41,686 nt of DNA from Candidatus Dadabacteria bacterium. GTDB taxonomy: Bacteria; Bdellovibrionota_C; UBA2361; J046. The notes under the pieces were generated by a model. It saw only the letters and a program-made list of their open reading frames with translations, was not told the origin of the DNA and did no database searches. Positions 3,213 to 38,906 of the stretch are shown piece by piece; the stretch's first letter is position 1, and every line of letters starts with the position of its first letter. Where the stretch lies: assembly GCA_003696425.1 (NCBI GenBank), contig RFHI01000237.1, positions 1 through 41,686 of the forward strand, given 5' to 3'. The translations under genes were made by a program, and so were the position numbers.

Positions 3213-3499
3213 AACTTGTAATCTTCAAATCCCGCAACTTCTACCGGTAGGACAAAAAATGGAATCATATATTGAATTATATGGTGACATTAATCGACTA
3301 ACAATTATAGGTAAACCTATAAACCCAGAGCGTGAAACGGTTTTTATGCTCTGCTCAAATACATTGAGTTTGCCCTGGTGACCGTTAATATATAATAGTG
3401 AATATATAATAGTGATTTTAGAAATGCCGAGCAATTGTCGGCACTTCACCCTTCCATCCAGCTTTACGCAGTTACCTTTTTCTGCTAACGTAATGATTA

Positions 3500-3590
3500 A
3501 CTCTTTCAGGGGTGCTGGTTGTTTTGGCCGGCTGAGATTATACCCTTTGAACCTGATGCAGGTAATGCTGCCGCAGGGAGCTCTAAAAGC
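3500..3590 (+). promoter_or_regulatory. TPP riboswitch (THI element)
   Basis: Consensus blocks in order: 'caggggtgctgg', 'ggctgagattataccctttgaacctgatgcaggtaatgctgccgcaggga', immediately upstream of thiSC. Confidence 0.94.
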
Positions 3591-3661
3591 CTTTCAAATA
3601 TTATCCGCCCTGAAAGATTGAGTTGTAAAGTTTTACGGTTTGATTTTGCGCGGATATTACT

Positions 3662-22382: not shown

Positions 22383-22735
22383 GGTAATTTAGGCCTGATG
22401 CCTTCGAGTCACGTGACCTAAGCTAGAGGTAGAGCCGTTACCAGTGTCTGTTCACAAATCAAACGCAGCCTGCACAGATCAGAAAGTAAACAGCTGGCCT
22501 CATTCTGATGCATTAAATGTCCTATAATAACGCCGGGGTCATGGGCTCTGAAAAAAGTCCCAGTATTTTCAGGAGGTGATTTCTGGCACAGCGCTTGCTT
22601 TATAAGACTAATACATATTGAGGGGGAAACTAAGACAGCTCTTCTCTCCAATTCGCCCGCTACCTTGAGTTGTCTGATGTTTACTTTCTTACCAGATCGC
22701 GCTCTAAAGGGAAGCCTTTCCAAAACGAACCGCCG

Positions 22736-22763
22736 GGAGCGAACAAAGCAATTTGTTCGCTCC
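22736..22763. repeat. Perfect 12-bp hairpin with GCAA tetraloop
   Basis: GGAGCGAACAAA (22736-22747) GCAA (22748-22751) TTTGTTCGCTCC (22752-22763). Confidence 0.8.
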
Positions 22764-22936
22764 ATTTCTTATTAATACGCCCGGCGTAAGCCGGATGTAA
22801 AAGCAATCTGCCCTGGCCAGAGATCAATGTGCAGCCAGTTTACTGACTGCAAATATCGTTTCTCCATACCATTAAAGGGTAACGGCTACGGATAAAACTA
22901 ATACAACAACTCTCAAGGAATATACATGTGGCGAAA

Positions 22937-34807: not shown

Positions 34808-34836
34808 GCTATTGTGTTCGGTTTTAAGGCTATTGT
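34808..34836 (+). promoter_or_regulatory. Possible enhancer (UAS): direct repeat GCTATTGT x2, 21 bp apart
   Basis: GCTATTGT at 34808-34815 and 34829-34836, both preceded by TTAA-type sequence, about 80-105 bp upstream of the sigma-54 -24 element. Confidence 0.3.
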
Positions 34837-34913
34837 AGCGCTTTAGTACTCTGCTGGAAATGCCGACATAAAGCTAACGCTTTTAAATTAAAGCATATTT
34901 TTTTAGTAAGTTA

Positions 34914-34929
34914 TGGCCCGTGATTTGCA
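34914..34929 (+). promoter_or_regulatory. Sigma-54 (RpoN) -24/-12 promoter
   Basis: TGGCCCG-TGAT-TTGCA. GG (34915-34916) and GC (34927-34928) are separated by exactly 10 bp, and only one position differs from TGGCACG-N4-TTGCA. Predicted TSS near 34940, ATG at 34972. Confidence 0.75.
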
Positions 34930-34971
34930 GTGGAGCTATTAACAGCAGCAAAACTGAGGAGAAACACTGCT

Positions 34972-35139
34972 ATGCCGGATAATACAGATAACAAAAAACC
35001 TGGTAAGCAAAAAGATCGTGATGTAATTCTGCTTCAGGATTTACAGCCAAAGCACGATGTAATAGGGGGGAGCAAAAAGCGCCTGTTTGGCGAGAGTGTT
35101 GAACAGGCTAAAGATAGGGAGAAAAAAACACCCGAATAG
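34972..35139 (+). CDS. 55-aa charged peptide with DLxPKxDVxGG motif; candidate RiPP-like precursor
   Basis: MPDNTDNKKPGKQKDRDVILLQDLQPKHDVIGGSKKRLFGESVEQAKDREKKTPE. SD 'gagga' at 34956-34960. Sigma-54 promoter upstream and terminator downstream. Confidence 0.65.
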   Translation: MPDNTDNKKPGKQKDRDVILLQDLQPKHDVIGGSKKRLFGESVEQAKDREKKTPE

Positions 35140-35205
35140 GATGAAAGGCCCTATGCGTTCTTTTAAGGCAGTGCGGCACAGCGAGGCCGTACTGTTTATT
35201 AGCTG

Positions 35206-35258
35206 GACAGGATGATTCCTGTCTGCTCCTATAAAGCAATATTGAAAAGTTAATATTG
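35206..35258 (+). ncRNA. Structured 3' UTR: two perfect 7-bp hairpins before the terminator
   Basis: GACAGGA-TGAT-TCCTGTC (35206-35223) and CAATATT-GAAAAGTT-AATATTG (35237-35258). Confidence 0.5.
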
Positions 35259-35262
35259 TATG

Positions 35263-35290
35263 ATGCCCGGAAGATACCGGGCATTTTTTT
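35263..35290 (+). terminator. Rho-independent terminator
   Basis: ATGCCCGG (35263-35270)-AAGATA-CCGGGCAT (35277-35284), perfect 8-bp stem followed by a 7-T run. Confidence 0.9.
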
Positions 35291-35403: not shown

Positions 35404-36507
35404 ATGTATGATGTACTGACCAATACGGTTTTTCGTGTTGGCTCTAGAGCATATAGCTGGATTGATATTCTTTTGTTTGCCTGGCTGCAACCGGACTGGG
35501 GGGTATTTGAAGATGCCATGGCATTTGGGGTCTCGGCGTATAAGCACGCTGAAAAGCATAATCTGCTGCCAGAGACTCATCTGGTAGAAGCCGGATTAAA
35601 CGAGTTTCGCTACCAGCATAACCTGCTTGCAGCTGAGGAAGTAGAGGATTGGCTTATCCAGCGCAGCCTGACGTTAAGTGATCTGATTGATTTTATAACT
35701 TTTTCAGTCTTACGCCAGCACTTTAAAGATCAAAAGTTGAAACTTTTAAAAGAATATAGCGTTAGTGATCACGAATTGCGCGATATGCTGCTCAGTGAGG
35801 GGTATTGCAGCGGATATTTTAACCGTGCAGCAAAAGAACTCTCAGAAATGTTAGCGCTTTATGATTTGGCTGTTGAAAAATACGGCGTCACCGATCATCT
35901 GCTTTATCCTGACCAGGAAAGAGTTGATGCTGTCGAACATGGGGTCATTAACCTGCTAAAGCGCTACGCTTTAGAGTGGCATAATTCTCTTCCACTAAGA
36001 GAAGCAATACGACAGTATTTATCCTTTGAAAATATGTACCCGCTATATTCTGAAATGTCTTCAATACAGACGCAGATTAATTTGCTTATTAGATCAAACC
36101 AGATTGAGTGGACTAAAGTTGACTACGACGTTCTTGAGTTTAAAGATGATCAGGTTGCCAGAGAAGCAGCTCTGTGTGCCAGAGAAGGTACCTTTTCAAT
36201 TATCGAGCTGGCAGAAGAAAACATCGCTGATCTTTCCAGTTATTCTCATATGATTAAGGATCTACAGCCGGAACTTAATGATGTTCTCAGTGTGCCGCTG
36301 GTAACTGCTAGAGAGGGGGAAATTATCGGGCCGTTAGAGATAAATGGCCGCTATGTGTTGATAAGGCTTAAGAACAAAGAGCTGCCGGATCTTGATAATC
36401 GAAGTATAAGGGAACTTGCACTTAAAACAGCAGTAAGGAACATGGCTGTAATTGAAAGTACCCGTAGAGTTAACTGGCTTGCAAACTGGTTGGCAGGACC
36501 GCAGTAA
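35404..36507 (+). CDS. PpiC/parvulin-related protein, possible peptide-maturation protein
   Basis: C-terminal half 'VDYDVLEFKDDQVAREAALCAREGTFSIIELAEENIADLSSYS...REGEIIGPLEINGRYVLIRLKNKELPDLDNRSIRELAL' has SurA/PpiC rotamase layout. Resembles the putative peptide maturation system family TIGR04500 as I recall it; not verified. ORF track starts at 35353; ATG at 35404 is more plausible. Confidence 0.65.
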   Translation: MYDVLTNTVFRVGSRAYSWIDILLFAWLQPDWGVFEDAMAFGVSAYKHAEKHNLLPETHLVEAGLNEFRYQHNLLAAEEVEDWLIQRSLTLSDLIDFITFSVLRQHFKDQKLKLLKEYSVSDHELRDMLLSEGYCSGYFNRAAKELSEMLALYDLAVEKYGVTDHLLYPDQERVDAVEHGVINLLKRYALEWHNSLPLREAIRQYLSFENMYPLYSEMSSIQTQINLLIRSNQIEWTKVDYDVLEFKDDQVAREAALCAREGTFSIIELAEENIADLSSYSHMIKDLQPELNDVLSVPLVTAREGEIIGPLEINGRYVLIRLKNKELPDLDNRSIRELALKTAVRNMAVIESTRRVNWLANWLAGPQ

Positions 36508-36538: not shown

Positions 36539-37564
36539 ATGAGTGCAAATTCAGATATAATAAAGGACATCCTGGAGTGTACACTGGATGATTACGTCAC
36601 AAGTGACCGCTCAATGCAGCAGTGCCTTGAACTTGCAATGGTAGCAGCCCGGACAGATCTTCCGGTGCTGATTCTGGGGGAGTCGGGAACCGGTAAAACC
36701 ATACTGGCTCGTGCAATCCATCGCTCTTCAAAGCGGGCATGCTTTCCTTTTATTTCTTTTAATGTTGCAGCACTAAGCGATACACTGCTTGAAAGCCAAC
36801 TCTTTGGGCACGAAAAGGGAGCTTTTACCAGTGCTGATCGCAGAGTTAAGGGAAAATTTGAGCTGGCTAATAAGGGCACAATTTTCCTGGATGAAATCGC
36901 GGATATGAGTAAAACTGCGCAGGCTAAAATCCTGCGTGTAGTAGAATACGGCGAATTTGAGCGCTTGGGTTCTGAAGAAATTCATACAACAGATGTAAGA
37001 ATAATTTCAGCCACGCATCTTCCGCTTTATGAATTTATTGAGTCAAACAAATTCAGAAAGGATCTTTTTTACAGACTCAGTGGAATATCAATTACAATTC
37101 CGCCGCTTCGTGAGCGGCCAAATGATTTAAAGGCCCTGGTTGCTGCTGAGATTAAACGGGCTGCCTGGCGTGAAAATAAAGAAATCAAGGGGCTTAGAAA
37201 ACAGGCGGCCGAGATATTATTTGATCACAACTGGCCCGGAAATTTGCGGGAGCTTAACCGGGTTATTCATACTGCTGTGGCCATGACCGATGGGGAGTTT
37301 ATTGAGCCAGAGCATATATTAATTGACAGGGCCAAGCCTGTTTTTGCAAATAACGGTGCTCCGACTGCTGAGAGTGCCCGGCAGGATGCTATGCAGCGAG
37401 TAAAGAATTTATCAGAGGATCTCTCTCTTCGAAATGCCGAGATTGCTCACATCATGCACGTACTTGAGTTAATGGGCGGCAACAAGCGCAAGACTGCTAA
37501 AGCTCTCGGTGTTTCGCGCTCAACGCTTGATCGTAAGCTGGAGAGTATTGAGGACAGGGACTAA
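36539..37564 (+). CDS. Sigma-54-dependent transcriptional activator (AAA+ plus Fis-type HTH, no sensory domain)
   Basis: Walker A 'GESGTGKT', 'ESQLFGHEKGAFTSADRRVKGKFELANKGTIFLDEIADM', 'RKDLFYRLSGISITIPPLRERPNDL', 'WPGNLREL', C-term 'MGGNKRKTAKALGVSRSTLDRKLE'. Confidence 0.95.
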   Translation: MSANSDIIKDILECTLDDYVTSDRSMQQCLELAMVAARTDLPVLILGESGTGKTILARAIHRSSKRACFPFISFNVAALSDTLLESQLFGHEKGAFTSADRRVKGKFELANKGTIFLDEIADMSKTAQAKILRVVEYGEFERLGSEEIHTTDVRIISATHLPLYEFIESNKFRKDLFYRLSGISITIPPLRERPNDLKALVAAEIKRAAWRENKEIKGLRKQAAEILFDHNWPGNLRELNRVIHTAVAMTDGEFIEPEHILIDRAKPVFANNGAPTAESARQDAMQRVKNLSEDLSLRNAEIAHIMHVLELMGGNKRKTAKALGVSRSTLDRKLESIEDRD

Positions 37565-37613: not shown

Positions 37614-38906
37614 TCACCTGGTTTCCTGCTTTTGCTTTTGGGCCTGCGGAGTTTTTTGTTTATCAATTTTGCGCGGAGCTTTGAGCGAATAAAGCGCACT
37701 GATTAAATCCGGTCTGGTTACAGTAATAATCCATTCGCCGGATTTTAAATAATTGGACTTTTCCCGTACCTGCTCAAGAATACGGCGGGGAACGTCTCTT
37801 TCAAGAAGCCAGGAGCCTTTTTCAATTATTGCAAGCAGTGCCTCTACAGCATCACGGACAGTGTAGCGCTCCGGCAGCTTTTCAAAGGTTATCTGGTGTT
37901 CTTCCAGCATACCAATAAACTGGTTAAGTATTTTACGGGAAACCTTCAGTGGCAACTCATGGATCGGGAGCGTCCCCAGGTAGCGCTCTTTCATACCGGC
38001 AAAGCGAAAGTTCCCCAGTTTTCTGTTACGACCCTTTGAAAGAAGTGCGTTAAGCTCTGATCTTACAAAAACAGCCTGGTTTTTGCCGCGTATTTCATAA
38101 CACTTAACTATGTTACCGGAACCATCAATAAGAAAATAAATAGCACCAACCCTTCTTATTTCAATATTGCGCTCTTTTCTGAAACTGGCTGGAATCAGGA
38201 CTTTTCTACGCTCTGAAATATGCCTTGATTTTCTTAACAGATGTCGTAGTGCTTCAGGAACAAAACGGACAGATTTTACCATGCGCGGGAATTCGCGTTT
38301 CAGCCTGTTGTTGTTAGCGGCCAGCTCTCTGAATTCGGTCAGTATGGCTGTATTTACTAAGTACGATCGTTTGCCAGCCTCAAGCGTGATTTTAAGACCC
38401 TTTACCGGATCCAGCTCAGAAGAAATACCTTTGCTGTTTTCAAAGAGAGGATCGCGCGGATGAAGGTAATCTTTAGTGTCAAGAAGAGATCCGTGATGAA
38501 CCGTAATATCAAGTTTTTCAGGTTTTGGTATTTCTCCCTCAGCTAGCACTCCAGGCAGCGCCTGTTTGCCTTCCACAATATAATAAAAATCCGGCAGTTC
38601 CGAGCCAAACAGACGCTTAAAAGCCTTTTCCCTGGGAAGTTTTTTGTTGCCTGATAAAGAATTAATCCATTCAGTATATACATCAGCAATATGGTCAATT
38701 AACTCTTCGTGTACGAAAATTCCCCGCTTGAGCACTCTGAGTTTGCGCCGGCGTTTTTCTTCATCCAGTGTTTCTGATAAGTAAACAGCAAAGGCAGCTA
38801 TAGAATCAGGAGCAGGTTCTCTGTTAGCATCAACTTCAGCTGCTTCCTGACCTGCTTCTGATAACTCTTCGCCTTTGTTGTCAGTAACTGATTCCGGTTC
38901 GCCCAC
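37614..38906 (-). CDS. Hypothetical protein, charged, unknown family
   Basis: 430-aa ORF with codon usage similar to neighbours. No family recognised. Confidence 0.6.
   Translation of the reverse strand: MGEPESVTDNKGEELSEAGQEAAEVDANREPAPDSIAAFAVYLSETLDEEKRRRKLRVLKRGIFVHEELIDHIADVYTEWINSLSGNKKLPREKAFKRLFGSELPDFYYIVEGKQALPGVLAEGEIPKPEKLDITVHHGSLLDTKDYLHPRDPLFENSKGISSELDPVKGLKITLEAGKRSYLVNTAILTEFRELAANNNRLKREFPRMVKSVRFVPEALRHLLRKSRHISERRKVLIPASFRKERNIEIRRVGAIYFLIDGSGNIVKCYEIRGKNQAVFVRSELNALLSKGRNRKLGNFRFAGMKERYLGTLPIHELPLKVSRKILNQFIGMLEEHQITFEKLPERYTVRDAVEALLAIIEKGSWLLERDVPRRILEQVREKSNYLKSGEWIITVTRPDLISALYSLKAPRKIDKQKTPQAQKQKQETR

Follow-up and report, generated by a model that had tools for sequence, protein, structure and literature searches.

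A probable sigma-54 promoter precedes a small peptide gene near isomerase-like and activator genes in a Candidatus Dadabacteria genome

Results

Organization of the peptide locus

The window analysed here, positions 1 to 41,686 of contig RFHI01000237.1 of a Candidatus Dadabacteria genome, contains on its forward strand a short ORF preceded by a putative sigma-54 promoter and followed by the genes of an isomerase-like protein and a sigma-54 activator. The features of this locus are as follows:

34808..34836 (+): two GCTATTGT copies 21 bp apart, a weak candidate activator-binding site (UAS) detected by self-similarity
34880..34913 (+): A/T-rich stretch abutting the -24 element (85% A+T, from base composition)
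34914..34929 (+): putative sigma-54 (-24/-12) promoter TGGCCCG-TGAT-TTGCA, with a predicted transcription start site (TSS) near 34940
34956..34961 (+): Shine-Dalgarno sequence GAGGAG, from sequence
34972..35139 (+): 55-aa ORF MPDNTDNKKPGKQKDRDVILLQDLQPKHDVIGGSKKRLFGESVEQAKDREKKTPE, a possible double-glycine leader peptide (...DVIGG/SKKR...), supported by its coding score
35262..35290 (+): intrinsic terminator with a 9-bp stem and T run, predicted end of the peptide transcript, from sequence
35404..36507 (+): 367-aa parvulin-type peptidylprolyl-isomerase-like protein (hhalign, hmmsearch), with ATG at 35404 and GAGG before it
36539..37564 (+): 341-aa sigma-54 activator with an AAA+ domain (GAFTSA loop) and a Fis-type HTH (Pfam domains, motifs)

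The promoter site (TGGCCCGTGATTTGCA) presents the GG-N10-GC spacing and a single mismatch (A to C) to TGGCACG-N4-TTGCA, and the sequence and coordinates given in the original prediction are correct. The ATG of the 55-aa ORF lies 42 bp downstream, with the Shine-Dalgarno sequence in between, in agreement with the distance of about 45 bp first estimated. The A/T-richness claimed for the upstream DNA is likewise borne out, since the A+T content of the 34 bp located 5' of the -24 element exceeds that of 99.97% of the window's 34-mers. The coding score of the ORF (0.429 bits/codon) surpasses that of every wrong-frame piece and of 88% of the 55-codon pieces taken from real genes; a longer version starting at a GTG at position 34930 was rejected because this codon lies upstream of the expected TSS. 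Given the terminator at 35262-35290, the mRNA is predicted to span approximately 34940 to 35290 and to encode the peptide as its sole product. For the 367-aa protein, the ATG at 35404 is the better start. The activator ORF begins 31 bp after this gene, 1.6 kb from the promoter as originally stated, and both genes probably constitute one operon, separate from the peptide unit. Elsewhere, the window contains a TPP riboswitch (3498-3596, +) upstream of a thiamine operon (thiC onwards) and the gene of a 430-aa protein (37614-38906, -) that has no Pfam match, yet is present in 24 of the 46 genomes of the class.

Genome-wide context of the sigma-54 promoter

The genome encodes the sigma-54 DNA-binding domain in two pieces located at contig ends, the second of which carries the RpoN box (ARRTVAKYRE), indicating that rpoN is present and split by a contig break. 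It also encodes nine strong sigma-54 activators. A genome-wide search for TGGCACGN4TTGCW allowing at most one mismatch returned 24 sites, versus 7 for the reversed control. According to their ORF context, 7 of these sites are intragenic and about 17 are located just upstream of, and oriented towards, genes, a count that takes in both the 34914-34929 site and a site at 22584 with a possible RNA downstream of it. Matches as good as the one under study hence lie mostly outside coding DNA. The genes behind them encode, as read from their translations, flagellin, FliD, two pilin-like proteins, a protein kinase-like and a PP2C phosphatase-like protein (L012, L014, L015, L021, L016 and L022), among others. 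With rpoN and sigma-54-type targets such as flagellin, FliD and prepilins in the genome, the sigma-54 interpretation gains support. Because about 90% of a 204-kb genome sample is coding, intergenic and correctly oriented matches are expected to be mostly real, in agreement with Francke et al. (PMC3162934).

The 34914-34929 site is the sole occurrence of TGGCNCGN4TTGCA in the 2.98-Mb genome (zero for the reversed-pattern control), but its score of 15.3 is the lowest of the promoter-like set (16.7-19.9 for the others) under a matrix built from the other sigma-54 sites of the same genome, which were themselves selected for similarity. It ranks second in the 204-kb sample, where three sites score at least 15 and only one of them falls within clear coding DNA. 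The top rank corresponds to 22584-22599 (TGGCACAGCGCTTGCT), a one-mismatch site with a score of 19.0 in a non-coding part of the window, and the claim that other intergenic regions held no comparable match does not stand.

A chance match, with the ORF transcribed from a sigma-70-type promoter, would be compatible with this low matrix score and with the number of two-mismatch sites in the window (7 versus 6.4 expected), which is at chance level, so that the window alone is no proof of a promoter and significance must come from the genome-wide context. That context, together with the correct strand and distance to the ORF, the scarcity of high-scoring sites in the sample and a search of the same strand here that found no sigma-70-like site, makes this explanation improbable. 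Within the class, nothing related to the locus DNA is available from which a phylogenetic footprint could be drawn. Taken together, the presence of rpoN and activators, the uniqueness of the site and the location of most one-mismatch sites just upstream of genes indicate that 34914-34929 is very probably a genuine sigma-54 promoter. Taken by itself, such a promoter is nothing out of the ordinary; the arrangement of peptide, isomerase and activator genes is more interesting, and is put forward here as a hypothesis.

The stronger site at 22584 is followed by a stretch that has no convincing ORF and ends in a perfect 12-bp hairpin (GGAGCGAACAAAGCAATTTGTTCGCTCC, at 22736) and a T-rich tail (22584-22772, +). 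For the RNA of 162 nt predicted here, folding was better than for any of 200 shuffled sequences (z -3.1), and Rfam contains no matching family. This site may drive a sigma-54-dependent small RNA of about 160 nt.

The neighboring activator

The 341-aa protein contains a sigma-54 activator domain (PF00158, E 9e-63) and an HTH_8 domain (E 2e-10), with complete Walker A, GAFTSA and HTH motifs and without an N-terminal sensor domain, a layout resembling that of PspF. Its loop is not unusual in varying, as other activators of this genome present GAFTNA, GAFTDA, GSFTGA and GAYTGA, and variants such as GAFTDA and GAFTHA occur in Desulfovibrio activators (PMC4641369). The GCTATTGT repeat precedes the -24 element by approximately 78-106 bp, a plausible distance for a UAS. 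Its self-similarity was matched by 26 of 400 dinucleotide shuffles, which is not significant alone, and a genome-wide search for the repeat found no second good copy, with the control scoring higher.

These results bear on whether a genuine promoter might instead be served by another activator, for instance a flagellar or pilus one, with the nearby protein acting elsewhere. At least eight further good activators are available in the genome, the UAS repeat lacks significance and the peptide and activator genes belong to separate transcription units. Against this, activators are often encoded close to their targets, and co-localized operons have been treated as the likeliest ones (PMC4641369); control by another activator therefore seems unlikely. 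We favor the protein encoded 1.6 kb downstream, which would most likely bind upstream of the promoter and open it.

Features of the 55-aa peptide

The 55-mer contains the segment DLQPKHDVIGG, a possible double-glycine processing site, followed by SKKRLFGESVEQAKDREKKTPE. The GG is present, but the residues before it agree only partly with the classical hydrophobic leader pattern (Lys at -7); the portion after the GG has no Cys and few Ser/Thr residues. Searches of 97 genomes at E<=1e-3 revealed no relatives, the same class and a set of 383 genomes yielded no homologs and neither NCBIfam nor Pfam contained a matching family, and the pattern DLxPKx[DN]VxGG occurred at chance level in 192 genomes. 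A tblastn search of plasmids returned only chance matches inside aminotransferases. A TIGR04500-type peptide-maturation family was also considered, but is absent from the NCBIfam scan results.

Homology of the isomerase-like protein

The 367-aa protein gave the first appearance of an orphan. Pfam assigned only Rotamase_2 (E 0.009), searches of the same class and 383 genomes yielded weak parvulin matches only, a genome_contigs scan produced no match and an AlphaFold prediction computed without an alignment was unusable (pLDDT 36). This appearance is countered by profile comparisons. Its best weak match is an isomerase in a cluster on a Tolypothrix plasmid (NZ_CP050443.1) comprising HopA1-like, kinase, HlyD and cNMP-C39 ABC genes and a precursor-like ORF whose leader ends in ...LNARGG; in a second genome, the same isomerase adjoins an ORF with ...ENITGG. 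Against a profile of five isomerases of this cyanobacterial cluster type, hhalign returned a probability of 97.1% (E 7e-11) in two collinear parts, and hmmsearch with the same profile scored 51.2 bits (best of 200 shuffles, 3.8). By its sequence, comprising both N-terminal and parvulin homology, the 367-aa protein is a distant relative of the isomerases in cyanobacterial peptide clusters.

A candidate exporter and the fate of the peptide

The genome encodes a single C39 ABC transporter (L167:6674-9769, contig C20), with N-terminal cyclic-nucleotide-binding domains in a cNMP-C39-ABC layout. The cyanobacterial (Tolypothrix) counterpart has the same layout, with 26% identity over 991 aa. The transporter gene is unlinked to the peptide gene and adjoins neither HlyD nor an obvious precursor; the window genes scanned include no exporter or peptide-modifying enzyme. 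Isomerase homology, a single C39 exporter of the same layout and the GG together favor a processed peptide of the double-glycine type, but the unlinked exporter, the lack of a modifying enzyme in the window and the non-classical leader speak against it; the odds of export are about even.

The promoter may also be genuine and the peptide an intracellular small protein, neither processed nor exported, acting as a stress peptide or as a feedback partner of the activator, much as PspA is the feedback partner of PspF. The charged, Cys-poor 55-mer, the atypical residues around the GG, the absence of an exporter from the window and a sensor-less activator that would need control in trans all fit this explanation. 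The neighboring isomerase-like protein, being homologous to isomerases found in GG-peptide clusters, speaks against it; we regard it as possible, if doubtful.

Discussion

We propose the following mechanism for a processed and exported double-glycine peptide. The short monocistronic mRNA would be transcribed from the 34914-34929 promoter under the nearby activator, and its product would most likely be a small precursor of the double-glycine type. This precursor would be folded or presented with the help of the isomerase-like protein, and a C39 peptidase/ABC exporter, for which the transporter on contig C20 is the candidate, would cleave behind the GG, so that the C-terminal 22 residues leave the cell. 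The analysis establishes the site, rpoN, a sigma-54 regulon, the coding signal of the ORF, the terminator, the isomerase homology and one C39 exporter of matching architecture. We infer transcription from the site, activator-promoter pairing, processing, export and function, and the chances of the full proposal, from genuine promoter and nearby activator to exported peptide, appear evenly balanced. It is a more tentative and rather unlikely proposition that the locus represents a new kind of peptide cassette of an uncultured lineage, with a sigma-54 promoter under its own sensor-less activator, an exported GG-type peptide and a co-encoded isomerase-like chaperone, in which the chaperone may link the handling of the peptide with activator control.

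The sites identified here give an initial outline of the sigma-54 regulon in a lineage for which few genomes have been sampled (46 species genomes in the class here). This outline encompasses flagella, pilin-like genes, a kinase, a phosphatase, a small peptide and, possibly, a small RNA. Should the peptide prove to be exported, findings on the natural-product genes of Myxococcus would be extended to the control of ribosomal peptides by sigma-54.

Among known systems, the locus shares with the PspF/psp type a -24/-12 element, A/T-rich upstream DNA and a nearby sensor-less AAA+ activator with a Fis-type HTH. It differs in having one small-peptide gene as its target, GAFTSA as the loop and an isomerase-like protein as the activator's operon partner, with no pspA-like gene seen. 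The RiPP cluster of the Tolypothrix plasmid has in common a related isomerase-like protein encoded next to a small ORF with a GG, and a transporter architecture also found in this genome. In contrast, the window lacks HopA1/kinase modification genes, the exporter is unlinked, the isomerase has an additional central region exceeding 100 residues and the locus presents probable sigma-54/activator control, a form of control that was not seen in the Tolypothrix stretch. Lastly, sigma-54 and an activator also preside over secondary-metabolite genes in Myxococcus xanthus (PMC7910581), where the targets are polyketide and non-ribosomal clusters with mostly intragenic promoters and the activator is Nla28, whereas here the probable promoter is intergenic and its target encodes a ribosomal peptide.
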